Part shown: positions 32,990 through 40,321 of the stretch, piece after piece
Position numbering within the stretch: the stretch's first letter is position 1
How the letters are laid out: each line of letters starts with the position of its first letter
Assembly: GCA_021324885.1 (NCBI GenBank)
Contig: JAJPIF010000011.1
Coordinates: 124,001 to 188,000, forward strand
DNA length: 64,000 bases
Source of the DNA: Pseudomonadota bacterium
GTDB taxonomy: Bacteria; Desulfobacterota; Binatia; Binatales; Binataceae
Direction of reading: 5' to 3'
The notes under the pieces: model-generated
The model's database searches: none
The model's input: the letters and a program-made list of their open reading frames with translations, nothing else
Told to the model about the DNA's origin: nothing
Made by a program: the position numbers and the translations under genes

Positions 32990-33430
32990 ATGCGAATAAA
33001 ACCCCGGTTTCTGTTCGGCGGAGCGCTGATCGTCGCCGCGATTGCGTATCTGATCGTTATTGGAATCCGTAGCACTTCGGAATACTACCTGACAGTGGAC
33101 GAGGCCGCGGCCCGCCAAACCGAGCTGATGGGGCAGTCGATCCGGGTGGCCGGCCGGGTCAAGGCCGGCACCATCGAGTGGGATCCGACAAAATTGAAGC
33201 TAAGCTTTACAATCGTGCCGCCGCCTCAGGACGGCGCCGCCGTGCAGCCGGTCAGCATGCGTCCGGCGCAGGAGATCAGGGTCGTTTGTACGGGGGAACC
33301 CAAGCCTGACATGTTCGCTGCTGGGCGCGACGTTATTGTCGAAGGCCATTTGACGGCGCACAATTTCGTGACGGCCGACCAGGTGATGACCAGTTGCCCG
33401 TCGAAGTATCAGGCTAAGAAGGCGGGCTGA
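32990..33430 (+). CDS. ccmE: Cytochrome c maturation haem chaperone CcmE, Cys-type
   Basis: 146 residues: one N-terminal span (about 7-26) then the periplasmic OB-fold (GQSIRVAGRVKAGTIEW, VVCTGEPKPDMFAAGRDVIVEG). At the C-terminus the usual haem-binding His of HDExY is replaced: the sequence is TSCPSKY, i.e. Cys136-x3-Tyr140. This CxxxY form is known from Desulfovibrio-type and archaeal Ccm systems. The protein accepts haem from CcmC and delivers it to CcmF. First gene of an eight-gene operon. Confidence 0.95.
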   Translation: MRIKPRFLFGGALIVAAIAYLIVIGIRSTSEYYLTVDEAAARQTELMGQSIRVAGRVKAGTIEWDPTKLKLSFTIVPPPQDGAAVQPVSMRPAQEIRVVCTGEPKPDMFAAGRDVIVEGHLTAHNFVTADQVMTSCPSKYQAKKAG

Positions 33431-33436
33431 TTCCTG

Positions 33437-35455
33437 ATGACTCTGATCGGACAGTTGGCGCTGGCGCTCGGCCTTTTGCTGGCGGTTTACTCCATTGGCG
33501 CCAACATCTATGGGCTTCGCCGACGCAGCGGCGAAGTACTTGCCAGCGCGCGTCACGCCTTGTGGGCGATGACCGCGATGGTGGCGCTGGCGGCCTGCGG
33601 GCTGTGGACCGGGCTGCTGCGCAGCGATTTCTCGCTCGAATACGTGGCGAGTTATTCCAGCACCACCTTGCCGACGGTGTACAAGATCACGGCATTGTGG
33701 GGCGGGCAGCAGGGATCGCTGCTGTTCTGGACGCTGCTGCTTTCAATTTTCAGCGCGATCGTTGCTTTTCAAACCCGCGAACGAAATTCCGAAATCGCCC
33801 CGTATGTTCTGATCGTGATGGCCGCGGTCGCGGTATTCTTCCTGGCGATGCTGAATTTCGTCACGCGGCCTTTTGACGCGATGATTCCGGTGCCTGCGCA
33901 AGGCACCGATCTCAACCCGCTGTTGCAGAACTACTGGATGGCGATCCATCCGCCCTCCCTTTATACCGGTTACGTCAGCACCACGGTTCCGTTTGCGTTC
34001 GCCACGGCGGCGCTGATGACCGGGCGTCTGGACGACGGATGGATCCGCAGCACTCGCCGATGGGCCTTGTTCTCGTGGTTTTTCCTGACTTTGGGCAACA
34101 TGTTCGGCGCGCGATGGGCCTACGAGGTGCTGGGCTGGGGTGGTTACTGGGCCTGGGATCCGGTGGAGAATGCCGCCTTCATGCCGTGGCTGGTGATGAC
34201 CGCGTATCTGCATTCGGTAATGGTCCAGGAGCGCAAGGACATGCTGAAAGTCTGGAACCTCGCCCTGATCGGCCTGGCCTTCGCGCTGACCTTGTTCGGC
34301 ACGTTCATCACGCGCAGCGGCGTTATCTCTTCGGTGCATTCCTTCACGCAGTCGGGTCTGGGGCCGTATTTTCTGACTTTCCTCCTGGTCGTGGTGGTAG
34401 CGTACACGGGCCTGCTGCTCAGCCGGATCAAAGATTTGCGCAGCCCGGCAGAGTTGGAGTCCTATCTGTCGCGGGAAGCGGCGTTCCTGTTCAACAACCT
34501 GGTGCTCGTTGGCATCGCGTTCGCGGTTTTTTGGGGAACGGTTTTCCCGGTCATCTCGGAGGCGGTGCGCGGTGTAAAGATCACCGTGGGCCCGCCGTTT
34601 TTCAACAAAGTCAACGGACCGCTGGCGCTCGCGCTGATTTTCCTGATGGGCGTGGGGCCGCTGATCGCATGGCGGCGCGCCACGCGCAAAAACCTGGTGC
34701 AGAGCTTCACCGCGCCGGCTGTAGTCGGGATCGTGACCGGGCTGTTGGCCTACGCCTTCGGCATCCGCGGATGGTACGTGCTGACCGGATTTTCGCTGGC
34801 CGCGTTCGTCCTCGGTACAATCGTCGTGGAGTTTGAGCGCGGGGTGTTGGCGCGGGGGCGGATGGTCCATGAGCGGCCGCCTCGCGCCCTGGTGAATCTG
34901 GTCGCGAAGAACAATCGCCGCTATGGCGGTTATATCGTCCATCTCGGCGTCGTGCTCGCTTTTGTCGCGATTATCGGTTCGTCATTTTTCAAGACCGAAG
35001 TGAAGCAAAGCGTTAAACCGGGCCAAAGCTTCGCGGTCGGCCCCTACCGTCTGGTTTACCTCGGGCTCGCTTCCTTCGAAACGGCCCACCTCGAAAACTT
35101 AAGCGCCCGCGTCAACGTCACCCGCGACGGCAGGTCGCTGGAGGTGATCGAACCCGCCAAGCTCTTTTTCAAGCGCCAGCAACAGCCTGCCACCAGGGTG
35201 GCAATCCGCTCCACGCTCGCCGCGGATCTTTACGTGGTGCTGGCCGGGGTGGATGACAAGACCGGGATGGCGACTTTCGATGTCTTTCTGACCCCGCTGG
35301 TCAGTTGGCTCTGGCTGGGCGGATTGACGATGGCCCTGGGGACCGTCGTGACGATGTGGCCTAATGCGCATGAGCGCGAAGTGATTGCCGCGGCGGCCCG
35401 CCGCCGGATGGGCGAACTGGAGCGGCAACTGGCCGCCGAAGTGCGCGGTACCTGA
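33437..35455 (+). CDS. ccmF: Cytochrome c haem lyase subunit CcmF
   Basis: 672 residues with about 15 membrane spans and the CcmF landmarks: WGGQQGSLLFW, the Trp-rich WGGYWAWDPVENAAFMPW, FGTFITRSGVISSVHSF and a large C-terminal periplasmic domain. It attaches haem to CxxCH apocytochromes together with CcmH. It begins 6 bases after ccmE; its TGA overlaps the next start (TGATG). Confidence 0.97.
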   Translation: MTLIGQLALALGLLLAVYSIGANIYGLRRRSGEVLASARHALWAMTAMVALAACGLWTGLLRSDFSLEYVASYSSTTLPTVYKITALWGGQQGSLLFWTLLLSIFSAIVAFQTRERNSEIAPYVLIVMAAVAVFFLAMLNFVTRPFDAMIPVPAQGTDLNPLLQNYWMAIHPPSLYTGYVSTTVPFAFATAALMTGRLDDGWIRSTRRWALFSWFFLTLGNMFGARWAYEVLGWGGYWAWDPVENAAFMPWLVMTAYLHSVMVQERKDMLKVWNLALIGLAFALTLFGTFITRSGVISSVHSFTQSGLGPYFLTFLLVVVVAYTGLLLSRIKDLRSPAELESYLSREAAFLFNNLVLVGIAFAVFWGTVFPVISEAVRGVKITVGPPFFNKVNGPLALALIFLMGVGPLIAWRRATRKNLVQSFTAPAVVGIVTGLLAYAFGIRGWYVLTGFSLAAFVLGTIVVEFERGVLARGRMVHERPPRALVNLVAKNNRRYGGYIVHLGVVLAFVAIIGSSFFKTEVKQSVKPGQSFAVGPYRLVYLGLASFETAHLENLSARVNVTRDGRSLEVIEPAKLFFKRQQQPATRVAIRSTLAADLYVVLAGVDDKTGMATFDVFLTPLVSWLWLGGLTMALGTVVTMWPNAHEREVIAAAARRRMGELERQLAAEVRGT

Positions 35456-35943
35456 TGCGTTACTTACAGCCCCTGGTGGTGATTATCGCCTTGATCGCAG
35501 CGGCTTGGGCGACGGCTGCGGCAGCTCCGACGACCACCGTTCAGGACGTGGCCGAAGGGCTGACCTGCCAATGCGGCTGCGGTCTGACGGTGGCCAACTG
35601 CAATCATCCCAATTGCGGTTTTTCGGTGCCGATGCGCGGTGAAATCGCCGGGATGATCCGCAAAGGCATGAGCCGGATCGAGATTCTCGACGCTTTTCGC
35701 CATAAATATGGCGAAAAGATCCTGTCCGCGCCGACCACTCAGGGGTTCAACCTGCTTGCCTGGGTCATTCCCTATGTTGCCGTCGGCGCCGGTATGCTGT
35801 TGATATTGATCGCGGTGGCGCGATGGCAAAGACCCGACGCGGCTGAAGGCGGCCCGCAGCGTCAGGCCACCGTCTCCGCCGTCAATCAGTTTGACCCCGG
35901 TCTCAGGCAGCGGCTTGAACGAGACCTCAAACGCCAGTTATAG
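35455..35943 (+). CDS. ccmH: CcmH-like thiol protein with CxCxC motif
   Basis: 162 residues: a signal anchor (4-24), a small periplasmic domain and one C-terminal span (WVIPYVAVGAGMLLILIAV). Canonical CcmH has LRCxxC; here the motif is LTCQCGC (Cys38, 40, 42) with two more cysteines at 49 and 54 (NCNHPNCGF). The following helix (GEIAGMIRKGMSRIEILDAFRHKYG, quoted in part) matches CcmH/NrfF. It should reduce the apocytochrome thiols, but with altered cysteine chemistry. Its start is coupled to the ccmF stop. Confidence 0.9.
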   Translation: MRYLQPLVVIIALIAAAWATAAAAPTTTVQDVAEGLTCQCGCGLTVANCNHPNCGFSVPMRGEIAGMIRKGMSRIEILDAFRHKYGEKILSAPTTQGFNLLAWVIPYVAVGAGMLLILIAVARWQRPDAAEGGPQRQATVSAVNQFDPGLRQRLERDLKRQL

Positions 35944-35946
35944 GCC

Positions 35947-36408
35947 GTGATCTATCTCGCGCTGTTTTTGATCGTCGTTGGTGTGGCCCTCTTTGTGGCG
36001 GCGCCACTGTTCGAAACCGCGACCGCCGGCGGCCCAGGCGATGCCGACTCGGAACGCAGCCGCCTTGAGCACGAGCGCGCGCTGGCCGTCCAGGCCCTTC
36101 GCGACCTGGAATTCGATCACGAGATGCGCAAGCTGTCGGAGCAGGACTGGTCCGAACTGAGACAGACCCTCGAAGCGCGAGCGCTGCGTGCGATGGCGGC
36201 GCTCGAAAAACTCGACCAGGCAGCCGCCGACCGTGGTCTGCGGGCGCGCAAGCGCCCCGTGCGCATCGCCGATGCTCCGACCGGGGGGCGGCCGAGGTTC
36301 TGTCCTGAGTGCGGCCAGCCGCTTACTGCCGGTGCCAACTTCTGCGGGCAATGCGGTGGCGCCCTGAAATTTCCGGAAAACCAGCAAGACGCCCGAAGCC
36401 ATGGCTGA
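35947..36408 (+). CDS. CcmI-like membrane protein with C-terminal zinc ribbon
   Basis: 153 residues from GTG 35947. A single N-terminal span is followed by a helical segment (HERALAVQALRDLEFDHEM, KLSEQDW) like the N-terminal part of CcmI, which handles apocytochromes. Instead of the TPR domain of CcmI, the C-terminus carries a zinc ribbon: CPECGQPLTAGANFCGQCG. It sits between ccmH and ccmA and overlaps ccmA by 8 bases. An apocytochrome-binding accessory role is inferred. Confidence 0.75.
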   Translation: MIYLALFLIVVGVALFVAAPLFETATAGGPGDADSERSRLEHERALAVQALRDLEFDHEMRKLSEQDWSELRQTLEARALRAMAALEKLDQAAADRGLRARKRPVRIADAPTGGRPRFCPECGQPLTAGANFCGQCGGALKFPENQQDARSHG

Positions 36409-37096
36409 GGTGGTGCTGCAAGCGCAGCGCATTGCCAAATTTTTCGGTGAACGGCCGGTTCTTTACGGCCTTGACCTGACCCTCCGGGCGGGCCAAGCGG
36501 CAGTAATCGTTGGACGAAATGGAGTCGGCAAGTCGACGCTAATCAAAATCCTGTGCGGCCTTTCCCCGCCCAGCGCCGGACGGCTATGGCTGTTTGGTCA
36601 GGAGCCTCGGAGCATGGCGGCACAACAGTTTCGACGCGTCGGCGTCCTGCTCCATCAGAGCCTGCTCTATCCCCGGCTTACCTGCCGCGAGAATATGGAG
36701 TTTTACAGCGAACTTTTCGCAATCCCGGATGCCGGCGCGCATGCCCGCCGATGGTTGGAGCGGGTCGGACTTCAGCGGGCCGCCGACGAACTGGTCAGCG
36801 CGCTGTCGCGGGGAATGGAACAGCGCCTGGGCATCGCGCGCGCGATGCTCGCCGACCCCGACCTGATCCTGCTCGATGAGCCGTTTGCCGCGATGGACGC
36901 CGACGGTGTGGCGCTGGTCTCGTCCCTTGTTCGCGAGGCCTTGGCGCGTGAGGCGGCGGTGATTTTTACGGCGCATGCCCCGCTGGAAATCGCCGGCGTC
37001 GACCTCCGAATGTTCAAGCTGGAGAGCAATGGTTTGACGCCGTTCAAGGATGAAGGCCGGCGCGGCTCTCTGCGCAATCTGCTGCGGCGGAATTAG
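36401..37096 (+). CDS. ccmA: Haem exporter ATPase CcmA
   Basis: 231 residues with Walker A GRNGVGKST, the signature LSRGMEQRLGIARAM, and Walker B LILLDEPFAAMD. It is the ATPase of the CcmABCD complex that releases holo-CcmE. Overlaps the CcmI-like gene by 8 bases and is followed 2 bases later by ccmB. Confidence 0.94.
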   Translation: MAEVVLQAQRIAKFFGERPVLYGLDLTLRAGQAAVIVGRNGVGKSTLIKILCGLSPPSAGRLWLFGQEPRSMAAQQFRRVGVLLHQSLLYPRLTCRENMEFYSELFAIPDAGAHARRWLERVGLQRAADELVSALSRGMEQRLGIARAMLADPDLILLDEPFAAMDADGVALVSSLVREALAREAAVIFTAHAPLEIAGVDLRMFKLESNGLTPFKDEGRRGSLRNLLRRN

Positions 37097-37098
37097 CA

Positions 37099-37773
37099 AT
37101 GCTGGAAGGATTCGGTCCCATCCTGCGCAAGGATTTGCGGCTTGAGGTCCGCACCGGCGAAAGCACGGTCGTCCTGGTTTCAATCTCGGTATTGATCCTG
37201 GTCGTGATGGTTCTGGCCTTTGGTCCCGCCGGCGCGCGCCGCGCCGAGGTCGCGGCGGGAGCGTTGTGGACCGCTCTGATCTTTGCCGGCACGATGGGCG
37301 CCACGCGCGCGCTGCTGTCCGAGCGTGAGTCCGGATGTCTTCGCGGCTTGCTGCTCAGCCCGGTCGAACCAGCGACGATTTATGCCGCCAAGTTGTCGGT
37401 GGCGATGATCTTCATGGCGCAAGCCGGCATCGCGGTGCTGGTCGTGCTGGTGCTGTTCTTCAATCTTGATTTTGGCGGCGCCTTGCTGCGCCTGCTCCCG
37501 GTCTTTCTGCTCGGAATCGTGGGACTGGCCGCCCTGTGCACATTGCTCGCCACTGTTTCCGGCCGGGTCCGCGCGGGCGCGATGCTGTTGCCGGTGATGG
37601 TCGTGCCGCTCTTTGCTCCAGCCCTGATCGCCGGCAGTAAGGCCAGTGCGGCGGTGTTGGCAGGGCAGCCCCTGGGCGCGGTGATCACCTGGCTCAAGCT
37701 GCTCGGCGCTTTCGACGTCCTCTTCGTCACCGCCGGGTATCTGCTCTTTGAGCACGTTATTTTTGAGGATTGA
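37099..37773 (+). CDS. ccmB: Haem exporter permease CcmB
   Basis: 224 residues, six membrane spans, with the early cytoplasmic RKDLRLEVRTGE and the SERESGCLRGLLLSPVEPATIY loop typical of CcmB. Works with CcmA, CcmC and CcmD. Starts 2 bases after ccmA. Confidence 0.95.
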   Translation: MLEGFGPILRKDLRLEVRTGESTVVLVSISVLILVVMVLAFGPAGARRAEVAAGALWTALIFAGTMGATRALLSERESGCLRGLLLSPVEPATIYAAKLSVAMIFMAQAGIAVLVVLVLFFNLDFGGALLRLLPVFLLGIVGLAALCTLLATVSGRVRAGAMLLPVMVVPLFAPALIAGSKASAAVLAGQPLGAVITWLKLLGAFDVLFVTAGYLLFEHVIFED

Positions 37774-37781
37774 CGCGATTG

Positions 37782-38489
37782 ATGAAAAACCCGATATCGA
37801 TTGGTCTGGCTGCGGCCACTTGCCTCTCGATGGTGGCCGCGCTGTTCATGGTATTCGTATACGTTCCCACCGAAGCCGAACAGGGAATCGTCCAGCGCAT
37901 CTTCTATTTCCATCTGCCTTGCGCGTGGGTCGCCTTCCTTGGTTTTGGGATCGTGGCGCTTGCCGGGGGATTATATCTATGGCTGGGCCACAAGGTGTGG
38001 GACGACCTGAGCTACGCGGCGGCGGAACTGGGGATGCTGTTCTGCACGCTGGTGCTGGTTACCGGATCGATCTGGGCCAAACCGATTTGGGGTGTTTGGT
38101 GGACGTGGGACTCGCGCCTGACCACGACGTTCATCCTGTGGCTGCTTTACGGCAGTTATCTGCTGCTGCGCGCCTTCGCCGATGACACCGACGGTATCGC
38201 GCGATTCGCCGCCGTGCTGGGGATCGTCGGTGTGCTGGACATCCCGATCATCATAATTTCGGTCAGGCTGTGGCGCACGATTCATCCGGCGGTGCTGCTG
38301 ACGCGCCAGGGTGAGCACGGGCTGCAGGATCTCAGGATGGTGGCGACGCTGCTGGTTTCGCTGGCAGCATTTACGATTATGTTCGTATGGCTGCTATGGA
38401 TGAGAGTCGCGACCCTGCGCTTGCGCACGCGGATTGTCAGATTGCGCAGGACTCTGGCCTTGCGGGAATTGGCGGAGGCGCATCGCTGA
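37782..38489 (+). CDS. ccmC: Haem-handling protein CcmC
   Basis: 235 residues from ATG 37782 (TTG 37770 is also open and would overlap ccmB). Six spans with the periplasmic haem-binding Trp-rich segment WWTWDSRLTTTFILW and flanking histidines, one at FYFHLPCAW and one at TIHPAV. It presents haem to CcmE. Its TGA overlaps the ccmD start. Confidence 0.95.
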   Translation: MKNPISIGLAAATCLSMVAALFMVFVYVPTEAEQGIVQRIFYFHLPCAWVAFLGFGIVALAGGLYLWLGHKVWDDLSYAAAELGMLFCTLVLVTGSIWAKPIWGVWWTWDSRLTTTFILWLLYGSYLLLRAFADDTDGIARFAAVLGIVGVLDIPIIIISVRLWRTIHPAVLLTRQGEHGLQDLRMVATLLVSLAAFTIMFVWLLWMRVATLRLRTRIVRLRRTLALRELAEAHR

Positions 38490-38686
38490 TGGATCATCTG
38501 GGATATCTGTTCGCCGCCTACAGCATCATTTTCCTCCTGATCGGGCTTTACGTGATCTTCATCGGGACGCGGCAAGCCCGTTTGGAGCGCGAAGTCCGCC
38601 GCCTGGAATCCGAGTTGCGCAAGAACGAGCCTCCCCTTGCGCCCGCAGACAATGTCGAAGAGATCAAAACCCCCGGCGGCGTATAG
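38489..38686 (+). CDS. ccmD: Small haem-exporter subunit CcmD
   Basis: 65 residues starting at ATG 38489, directly on the ccmC stop (TGATG). One membrane helix (YLFAAYSIIFLLIGLYVIF) with a charged C-terminal tail (RLEREVRRLESELRKNE) fits CcmD, which helps release holo-CcmE from CcmABC. The longer in-frame extension upstream is antiparallel noise inside ccmC. Last gene of the ccm operon. Confidence 0.85.
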   Translation: MDHLGYLFAAYSIIFLLIGLYVIFIGTRQARLEREVRRLESELRKNEPPLAPADNVEEIKTPGGV

Positions 38687-38921: not shown

Positions 38922-40028
38922 ATGGAATTCCAGGATTACTACAAAACCTTGGGCGTCGAGCGCACGGCCACCGAGCAAGAGATCAAATCCGCCTATCGCA
39001 AGCTGGCCCGCAAATTTCACCCCGACGTTAATCCCGGTAACAAGGAAGCGGAAAAGCGCTTCAAGGAAATCAATGAGGCGTACCAGGTGCTCGGGGACCC
39101 CGACAAGCGCAAGAAATACGACGAACTCGGCGCCGATTGGCAGCGCGGCGCGGCGGAAGACGAATTGCGCCGCCGCTACGCGCAACAGGGCGGACCGTCG
39201 AGCGGATTCCGCGCCGGTCCGGGTGCGGAAGACTTCAGTGACTTTTTTGCCAGCTTCTTCGGCGGCATGGGCGGCGGCGGGATGGGCGGCCGCAGAACCC
39301 GCACTGCGGGCTTCGAGGACTTCGGCGATTTCGGGTTCGCCCCACGCGAAGAAAAGGCTCCAGACCTCACGGCCGAAGTCCAGATTACTCTGGCCGAAGC
39401 CGCGCACGGGACCAGGCGCCGTCTTGAGTTGACCGCCCAGGACGATTGCCCCGTCTGCAAAGGCGCGGGCATGGTGATGCAGGAAGAGCGAATGGGGCAG
39501 GCGCGCGTGGTGCGTTCCGCCAAAACTTGTTCGCGATGCAAGGGCAGCGGGATCATCCCCAACCGCCGCACCCTGGAAGTAACGATTCCGGCCGGCACCA
39601 CCGACGGCACCCGGATGCGCCTGGCGGGGCAGGGAGGACGCGGCCCGCGTGCGGACCTCAATGGCGACCTTTTCCTGACCGTGCGCCTTCAGCCGGATCG
39701 GGTTTTCAAAGTCAACGGAAGGGATTTGCGAGTCGAGCTCCCGGTATGGGATTACGAAGCCGTTCTGGGCGCCGAGGTCACCGTTCCGACGCTGACCGGC
39801 AAACTGTCGCTCAAAATTCCCGCCGACAGCCAGACCGGCAGAGTGATGCGACTTAAGGGCAAAGGCTTGCCTGGCCGGGGCAAAGACCCGGCCGGCGATC
39901 TGTTCTTCGAATTGAAAGTGCTGGCGCCGAACAATCTCACCGAGGATGAACGCGCTTTGTTCCGCGAACTGGCGGAAAAAGAGCGCCGGCGCGGAACCCC
40001 TGACCCTCGCTCCGAATTGTTTAGATAG
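38922..40028 (+). CDS. DnaJ-family J-protein with half zinc centre
   Basis: 368 residues. J domain at 1-70 with HPD (33-35), a Gly/Phe-rich linker (95-140), a reduced cysteine region with only two CxxCxGxG repeats (Cys176/179 and Cys203/206; DnaJ has four), and two C-terminal beta domains ([19 protein letters not shown]-like: [17 protein letters not shown]). It stimulates DnaK and binds unfolded clients, here with a single zinc site at most. It is an intermediate between DnaJ and CbpA. A CbpM/MerR-like partner gene follows 2 bases later. Confidence 0.88.
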
Positions 40029-40030
40029 CT

Positions 40031-40321
40031 ATGACCGCTCGAAACAAATCAAAAAAAGGTTCCCGCCGCGAATTGCGCTTTTACACCAGGTCCGTGGTCT
40101 GCGGCTTGTGCGGCGTTTCGGAATCGGAGCTCGCCCTGTGGGAATCCGAGGACCTGGTGACTCCCGCCCGCCTGCTGGAGCATGGCAGCCGCTTCGAGCC
40201 GCTTTATGACGCCGACTCGCTGCGGCGCATCCGCCTGATCCGCACCCTCGCCGATGAACTGGAGGTCAACATCCCGGGCATCAGCGTAATCCTTCATCTG
40301 CTGGAACAGATGCAGCGTTAG
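40031..40321 (+). CDS. MerR-like/CbpM-type chaperone modulator
   Basis: 96 residues: a winged-helix MerR-type N-terminus (VCGLCGVSESELALWESEDLV, then DADSLRRIRLIRTLADEL) and a C-terminal helix (ISVILHLLEQMQR). In E. coli CbpM binds CbpA and blocks its J-domain; HspR-type relatives repress dnaK operons. Either role fits, and adjacency to the J-protein supports it. The DNA-binding helix looks intact. Confidence 0.8.
   Translation: MTARNKSKKGSRRELRFYTRSVVCGLCGVSESELALWESEDLVTPARLLEHGSRFEPLYDADSLRRIRLIRTLADELEVNIPGISVILHLLEQMQR

Follow-up and report, generated by a model that had tools for sequence, protein, structure and literature searches.

A CcmI-like core joined to a zinc ribbon in the cytochrome c assembly cluster of a Binataceae bacterium and its relatives

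Introduction

What does a small gene contribute to cytochrome c assembly when it is placed between ccmH and ccmA, begins like CcmI, and ends in a zinc ribbon? The gene lies in a window of 64,000 nucleotides (the whole stretch of DNA analyzed here) from a member of the Binataceae. A first-pass annotation had described its product as a CcmI in which the TPR domain is replaced by a zinc ribbon, which might chaperone cysteine-rich apocytochromes or sense thiol redox state. Classical System I CcmI/CycH (TIGR03142), as in R. capsulatus and P. aeruginosa, has in common with the window protein the N-terminal helix, the conserved helical segment, the presumed membrane order of the N-terminal part, and the adjacency to ccmH; in contrast to it, the window protein lacks the second membrane helix and the TPR domain and carries a zinc ribbon after the helical hairpin. 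The roles of CcmH and CcmI, and how System I* works with different parts, are described as unclear in passages of a review (PMC3601427), in which CcmI is given as a TPR protein and a short or ribboned form is not described.

Results

The cluster in the window has the order ccmE, ccmF, ccmH, ribboned CcmI gene, ccmA, ccmB, ccmC, and ccmD-like gene. Its features, and those of the protein under study, are as follows.

32990-33430, + strand: ccmE, with CPSKY replacing HxxxY (System I* type); Pfam CcmE 74.6 bits, and sequence
33437-35455, + strand: ccmF; Pfam CcmF_C and Cytochrom_C_asm
35455-35943, + strand: ccmH, with the variant Cys-rich motif LTCQCGCGLTVANCNHPNC; Pfam CcmH 65.5 bits, and motif
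35947-36408, + strand: protein of 153 aa with CcmI core and zinc ribbon; ORF, TIGR03142 sub-threshold, Zn_Ribbon_1 over cut-off, 29 relatives aligned
35950-36012, + strand: single membrane helix, residues 2-22; AlphaFold2 model and hydropathy (one TM segment in 30/30 members)
36037-36252, + strand: helical hairpin of the CcmI-1 type, residues 31-59 and 65-102, motif ALRDLEFDHEMRKL...D; invariant or near-invariant columns and AlphaFold2
36301-36357, + strand: zinc ribbon, residues 119-137, CPEC...CGQCG; Pfam Zn_Ribbon_1, four Cys in 30/30 members
36401-37096, + strand: ccmA; TIGR01189 ccmA 141.7 bits, over cut-off
37099-37773, + strand: ccmB; Pfam CcmB 94.9 bits
37770-38489, + strand: ccmC; TIGR01191 148.3 bits (cut-off 186), Pfam Cytochrom_C_asm 106.3 bits, over cut-off
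38489-38686, + strand: ccmD-like gene, start codon inferred within the listed ORF 38387-38686; TIGR04391 CcmD_alt_fam 52.8 bits, over cut-off

The ORF starts with GTG at 35947 and its stop codon ends at 36408; the ccmH stop lies 3 bases upstream, and the last 8 bases overlap the start of ccmA. Its assignment to a cytochrome-assembly cluster was correct. The Cys-rich motif of the neighboring CcmH is unusual at a position where LRCxxCQN is expected, and other lineages with a short CcmI mostly have third-Cys variants of their own. On the 3′ side of the cluster, a DnaJ-like gene is accompanied by a small CbpM/MerR-like ORF (38922-40321; named by eye).

The N-terminus (residues 3-93) matches the NCBIfam model of CcmI (TIGR03142) with an E-value of 8e-5 and 22.9 bits, the curated cut-off being 29.3. 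This cut-off was passed by only 5 of 395 genomes of the phylum, all of them same-family relatives sharing the core-plus-ribbon architecture, and the next match in the window's own genome had an E-value of 0.55. The window protein and all of its 29 aligned relatives match the model at E ≤ 0.01, which upholds the CcmI-like N-terminus. Matches L237/L240 and L239/L241 of the phylum scan, without a CcmF match and, by eye, without ccm-like ORFs nearby, were taken as chance. The C-terminus (residues 118-137) scored 29.9 bits against Pfam Zn_Ribbon_1 (PF13240; cut-off 25); at E ≤ 0.01, that family was matched by 26 of the 30 members and DZR (PF12773) by all of them. With these families the protein has the four-Cys ribbon in common; it differs from them in that the ribbon is joined to a CcmI core in a ccm cluster. 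TPR families were not among the 16 Pfam matches (E ≤ 1) of the window protein, and the family has neither the second membrane helix of CcmI nor its periplasmic TPR domain, as judged from one TM segment in 30/30 members and the lack of a TPR match (Pfam).

The AlphaFold2 model of the window protein (mean pLDDT 83.7; metal not in the model) consists of a membrane helix (residues 2-22), a helical hairpin (31-59/65-102), and short strands across the ribbon region, with pLDDT between 89 and 98 for the block of residues 31-100 that holds the hairpin. Foldseek matches did not reach E ≤ 0.001, the best being at 0.077. Rows from a structural aligner were rejected as signs of kinship, since they mainly covered residues 25-102 and matched coiled coils of many kinds. 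The best among the PDB sequence matches listed fall on the ribbon, except for one weak match to the helical part, and a search of a plasmid collection yielded no match.

In the alignment of 30 members, Cys119, Cys122, Cys133, and Cys136 are invariant, as are V17, P20, L21, A47, D57, K62, D67, L75, A79, L80, and G137. Because the four cysteines are invariant while the linker preceding them varies in length and sequence, selection probably acts on the ribbon. Of the 29 relatives, 28 have ccmH upstream and 28 have ccmA downstream, and the full order ccmF-ccmH-short CcmI-ccmA-ccmB was found in 25 (L009 begins at a contig end).

The distribution of the architectures was read in a set of 57 genomes, comprising the window's own and 56 relatives. 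Some match to the window protein was present in 55 of these, and the ccm locus was read in 55; G004 and G006 were scored as "locus not seen," since CcmH was not found (ccmF of G004 borders a contig edge, and the completeness of G006 is 53%). Core and ribbon occurred together in 40 genomes, the window's own included, and the core without ribbon in 12 (G008, G009, G036, G038, G040, G042, G044, G046, G047, G050, G052, and G054). In three, CcmH and CcmI are encoded by one ORF, which includes TPR in G035 and G055 and breaks off at the contig end ahead of the TPR part in G048. Scanning named genomes with the profile yielded 63 loci, 62 of them with ccm genes; the exception, L098, is a ribbon-only match, and so the search for homologues outside ccm operons found no unrelated setting for the core. 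The 62 ccm loci, labeled by reading, divide into 51 ribboned (39 with one ribbon, 12 with two in tandem), 6 core only, 4 TPR-bearing (TPR recognized by tblastn with TPR queries, not by Pfam), and 1 cut by a contig end. By genome name, ribboned forms were found in Binataceae, unclassified "Deltaproteobacteria"/"Proteobacteria," Chloroflexi, Gemmatimonadetes, and one member of the Acidobacteriota; core-only forms in Thermoleophilia/Actinomycetota, one member of the Anaerolineales, and one of the "Deltaproteobacteria"; TPR-bearing forms in Rokubacteria and one member of the "Deltaproteobacteria." No strong core match was found away from ccm genes; G023 (C29) contained one weak match in the core region (E 9.7e-4). 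Ribbon-only matches elsewhere (e.g., L002, L003, L004, L098, L134, L136, L137, L139, and L140) were set aside as other proteins.

Hydropathy gave one hydrophobic segment per member, at or near the start, in 30/30. In five ORFs in which CcmH and CcmI are fused (L083, L088, L089, L179, and L180), the order is hydrophobic segment, CxxC, TM, hairpin, TM, TPR; in L067, unfused and TPR-bearing, it is TM, hairpin, TM, TPR. Passages of PMC3884852 and PMC3601427 place the thiol domain of CcmH and the large domain of CcmI in the periplasm, and a review passage gives the segment between the helices of CcmI from R. capsulatus and P. aeruginosa as cytosolic. Because the hairpin lies between two TM segments in the fusions, and the CcmH thiol and large CcmI domains are periplasmic, the core hairpin should be cytosolic, opposite to the CcmH thiol site and the TPR domain. 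The ribbon is then probably also on the cytosolic side, because no further helix precedes it. The 20 residues after the helix contain on average 3.5 K/R, and none is present before the helix, where only 0-8 residues precede; the window protein has 2 K/R versus 4 D/E in the same stretch. This bias agrees weakly with a cytosolic hairpin and ribbon, the positive-inside support being modest.

On a quick CcmF tree that included 82 of the 91 labeled loci, the presence of the ribbon switches 8 times while the core is retained, so that the ribbon resembles a module that comes and goes on a lasting core. The ribbon is dispensable, as the 12 core-only genomes of the 57 demonstrate. Since the core-only form is also without TPR, the ribbon has been added to a short CcmI and does not stand in for the TPR domain; the earlier description was right in that TPR is lacking and the ribbon occupies the place of the remainder of CcmI. 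A ribbon remnant was sought in three frames 3′ of the core stop in G008, and none was seen. The core-only CcmI of G009 (L163:2899-3582) has a long low-complexity C-terminal tail in the usual place of the ribbon. In three Chloroflexota loci (L063:6447-7643, L075:6342-7631, and L087:6345-7583), the ribboned CcmI is followed by a gene for a protein of 398-429 aa; an MLHxWD-like stretch is common to these proteins by eye, and they have no Pfam match at E ≤ 0.001.

In the loci read, the type of CcmE goes with the type of CcmI. The C-terminus of the window's CcmE, ...TSCPSKYQAK, is the cysteine form that defines System I*, for which CPSKY is given as the commonest form, and delta-proteobacteria and chloroflexi among the carriers, in passages of PMC3601427 (the former in section 8). 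In the comparison, for which all loci had been gathered with a profile of the short CcmI core, cysteine CcmE was found in 62 of the 62 core or ribboned loci read (33 one-ribbon, 7 two-ribbon, and 22 core; 24 of 86 unread, ribboned G342 [L061] being among these), and histidine CcmE in each of the 6 loci read among the 7 with a TPR-bearing or fused CcmI. In ribboned genome G343 (L063), CcmE was sought and not found. Similarly, the CcmH motif contained at least three Cys in 78 of the 79 core or ribboned loci that showed the motif, all but L084 (it was unseen in 7 of 86, the motif of L175, a false pattern match, being scored as such), and two in 7/7 TPR-bearing or fused loci. Because the five TPR-bearing rows form one supported clade on the quick CcmF tree, the association with CcmE corresponds to one evolutionary split. 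The short or ribboned CcmI thus seems to belong to System I*, a less-studied variant of the assembly machine.

If the core persists without TPR, the TPR part may be encoded elsewhere. Of 11 short-core genomes from the wider phylum, wider regions were opened in 8, picked once TPR matches near ccm were known for some of them; with TPR queries partly drawn from L209 and L210 themselves, a separate TPR gene was found downstream in 7 of these 8 clusters (L203-L207, L209, and L210), after ccmC where labeled, and those of L209 and L210 were checked with Pfam TPR. A CcmI split into two proteins therefore seems to occur. No TPR gene was found in the eighth, L208, where a gene with six CxxCH motifs lies 3′ of ccmC (L208:7328-8485). 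Near ccm in Binatota-type loci, that of the window included, a TPR gene was sought and none was found.

Away from ccm, the window's genome encodes a protein of 389 aa with the order ribbon, TM, TPR (G000:C18:3263-4429; L143; L141:3263-4432). Homologues (E ≤ 1e-20) are present in 53 of the 57 genomes, i.e., all 52 with a core or ribboned CcmI plus G004 (that of G012, at a contig edge, is the C-terminal part only), and at the same threshold they are absent from the three CcmH-CcmI fusion genomes and the incomplete G006. This complementarity is suggestive, on the basis of three genomes from two families, with the relatives in one clade. The ribbon was present in 22/22 homologues inspected; in 31 other genomes, 15 had matches at E ≤ 1e-10, none extending into the ribbon or TM segment. 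Mean K/R around the helix was 1.9 before and 2.4 after (22 proteins), a charge distribution that leaves the side undecided. The protein scores 44.5 bits against the NrfG/CcmI-type TPR family (PF23914; cut-off 42), and several general TPR models score higher. PF23914 is the known counterpart of the separate TPR genes in some short-core clusters; none was found in the window cluster, and the match of the ribbon-TM-TPR protein to this family is non-specific. In three f6 genomes, the ribbon-TM-TPR gene is ∼10-13 kb from ccm; this linkage was discounted, as the ORFs between seemed unrelated by eye. The ribbon-TM-TPR protein may be the missing TPR half of a split CcmI.

Discussion

On balance, the protein is probably the scaffold half of CcmI in the heme-ligation complex of System I*, with the ribbon as a cytosolic docking module. 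Its architecture, conservation, linkage to ccm genes, and association with cysteine CcmE, as well as the one predicted TM segment and the membrane order of the fusions, are what the comparison of sequences covers; from these we infer zinc binding, contact with CcmF/CcmH, and the docking role and partner of the ribbon. The short, separate CcmI subunit, consisting of a membrane helix and a cytoplasmic helical segment, would join the CcmF/CcmH ligation complex of the cysteine-CcmE machine. Its one helix would anchor it in the membrane, the conserved hairpin would pack against the cytosolic face of CcmF/CcmH, and the C-terminal Zn(Cys)4 ribbon would dock a protein partner in the cytosol, for which CcmA, the ribbon-TM-TPR protein, and another copy of the short CcmI are candidates. 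The periplasmic, apocytochrome-binding TPR function would be absent or come from another protein. A bolder version of the second candidate, tentative and rather doubtful at present, is that CcmI of the Binatota type consists of two unlinked ribboned membrane proteins, the short core encoded with ccm and the ribbon-TM-TPR protein encoded elsewhere, whose ribbons would pair in the cytosol and thereby bring the apocytochrome-binding TPR arm to CcmF/CcmH of System I*.

CcmA is the main cytosolic Ccm protein, and the ribbon might dock on, or regulate, this ATPase, thereby connecting two complexes, the heme-releasing CcmABCD and the ligation complex, on the side of the cytosol; the overlap of the window gene with ccmA, and ccmA being next in 28 of the 29 aligned relatives, would fit. 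However, within 1.5-3 kb, ccmA was not found beside the ribboned gene in Chloroflexota loci or in families f4, f6, f8, f10, and f11 of the same class, and most core-only genes of f5, f7, and f9 do adjoin ccmA, which makes this role for the ribbon unlikely. A cytosolic sensor of metal, heme, or redox state that tunes cytochrome assembly is improbable as well: the invariant Cys4 site, which presumably faces the cytosol in a machine that handles heme, and a first knuckle that is mostly CP would suit it, but CPxCG knuckles are the usual form of structural zinc ribbons, no regulator domain was matched (Pfam), and 12 of the 57 genomes have a core with no ribbon. As for the functions first proposed, in which the ribbon assumes the job of the TPR domain by handling apocytochromes or sensing thiol redox in the periplasm, its position in the chain and the likewise cysteine-rich CcmH next to it speak for them, but a ribbon that is cytosolic cannot touch periplasmic apocytochromes, and the single TM segment (30/30), the cytosolic hairpin of the five fusions, the ordinary structural spacing of the cysteines, the 8 switches of the ribbon on the quick CcmF tree with the core staying, its dispensability, and the core-only forms that lack TPR too render both very improbable.

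The scaffold-and-docking reading assembles known parts, namely, the CcmI core, the zinc ribbon, and System I*, with its CcmE that mostly ends in CPSKY, according to passages of PMC3601427, as does that of the window. In open-access searches, mostly of titles and the starts of abstracts, no ribboned or short CcmI and no pairing of CcmI with a zinc ribbon was found, and no description of such a combined protein, of its occurrence in several phyla, or of its link with cysteine CcmE came up. A search within the Binatota genome paper (PMC8262859) turned up no passage with "ccm" or "maturation."

These observations suggest a minimal form of CcmI, a helix with a cytosolic hairpin, that is kept where there is no TPR domain and that has gained or lost a cytosolic zinc module on several occasions. 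The membrane half of CcmI thereby becomes testable on its own, and the ribbon-TM-TPR protein can be named as a candidate for its TPR counterpart. They also suggest that genes labeled as mere zinc-ribbon proteins by domain searches can be ccm subunits.
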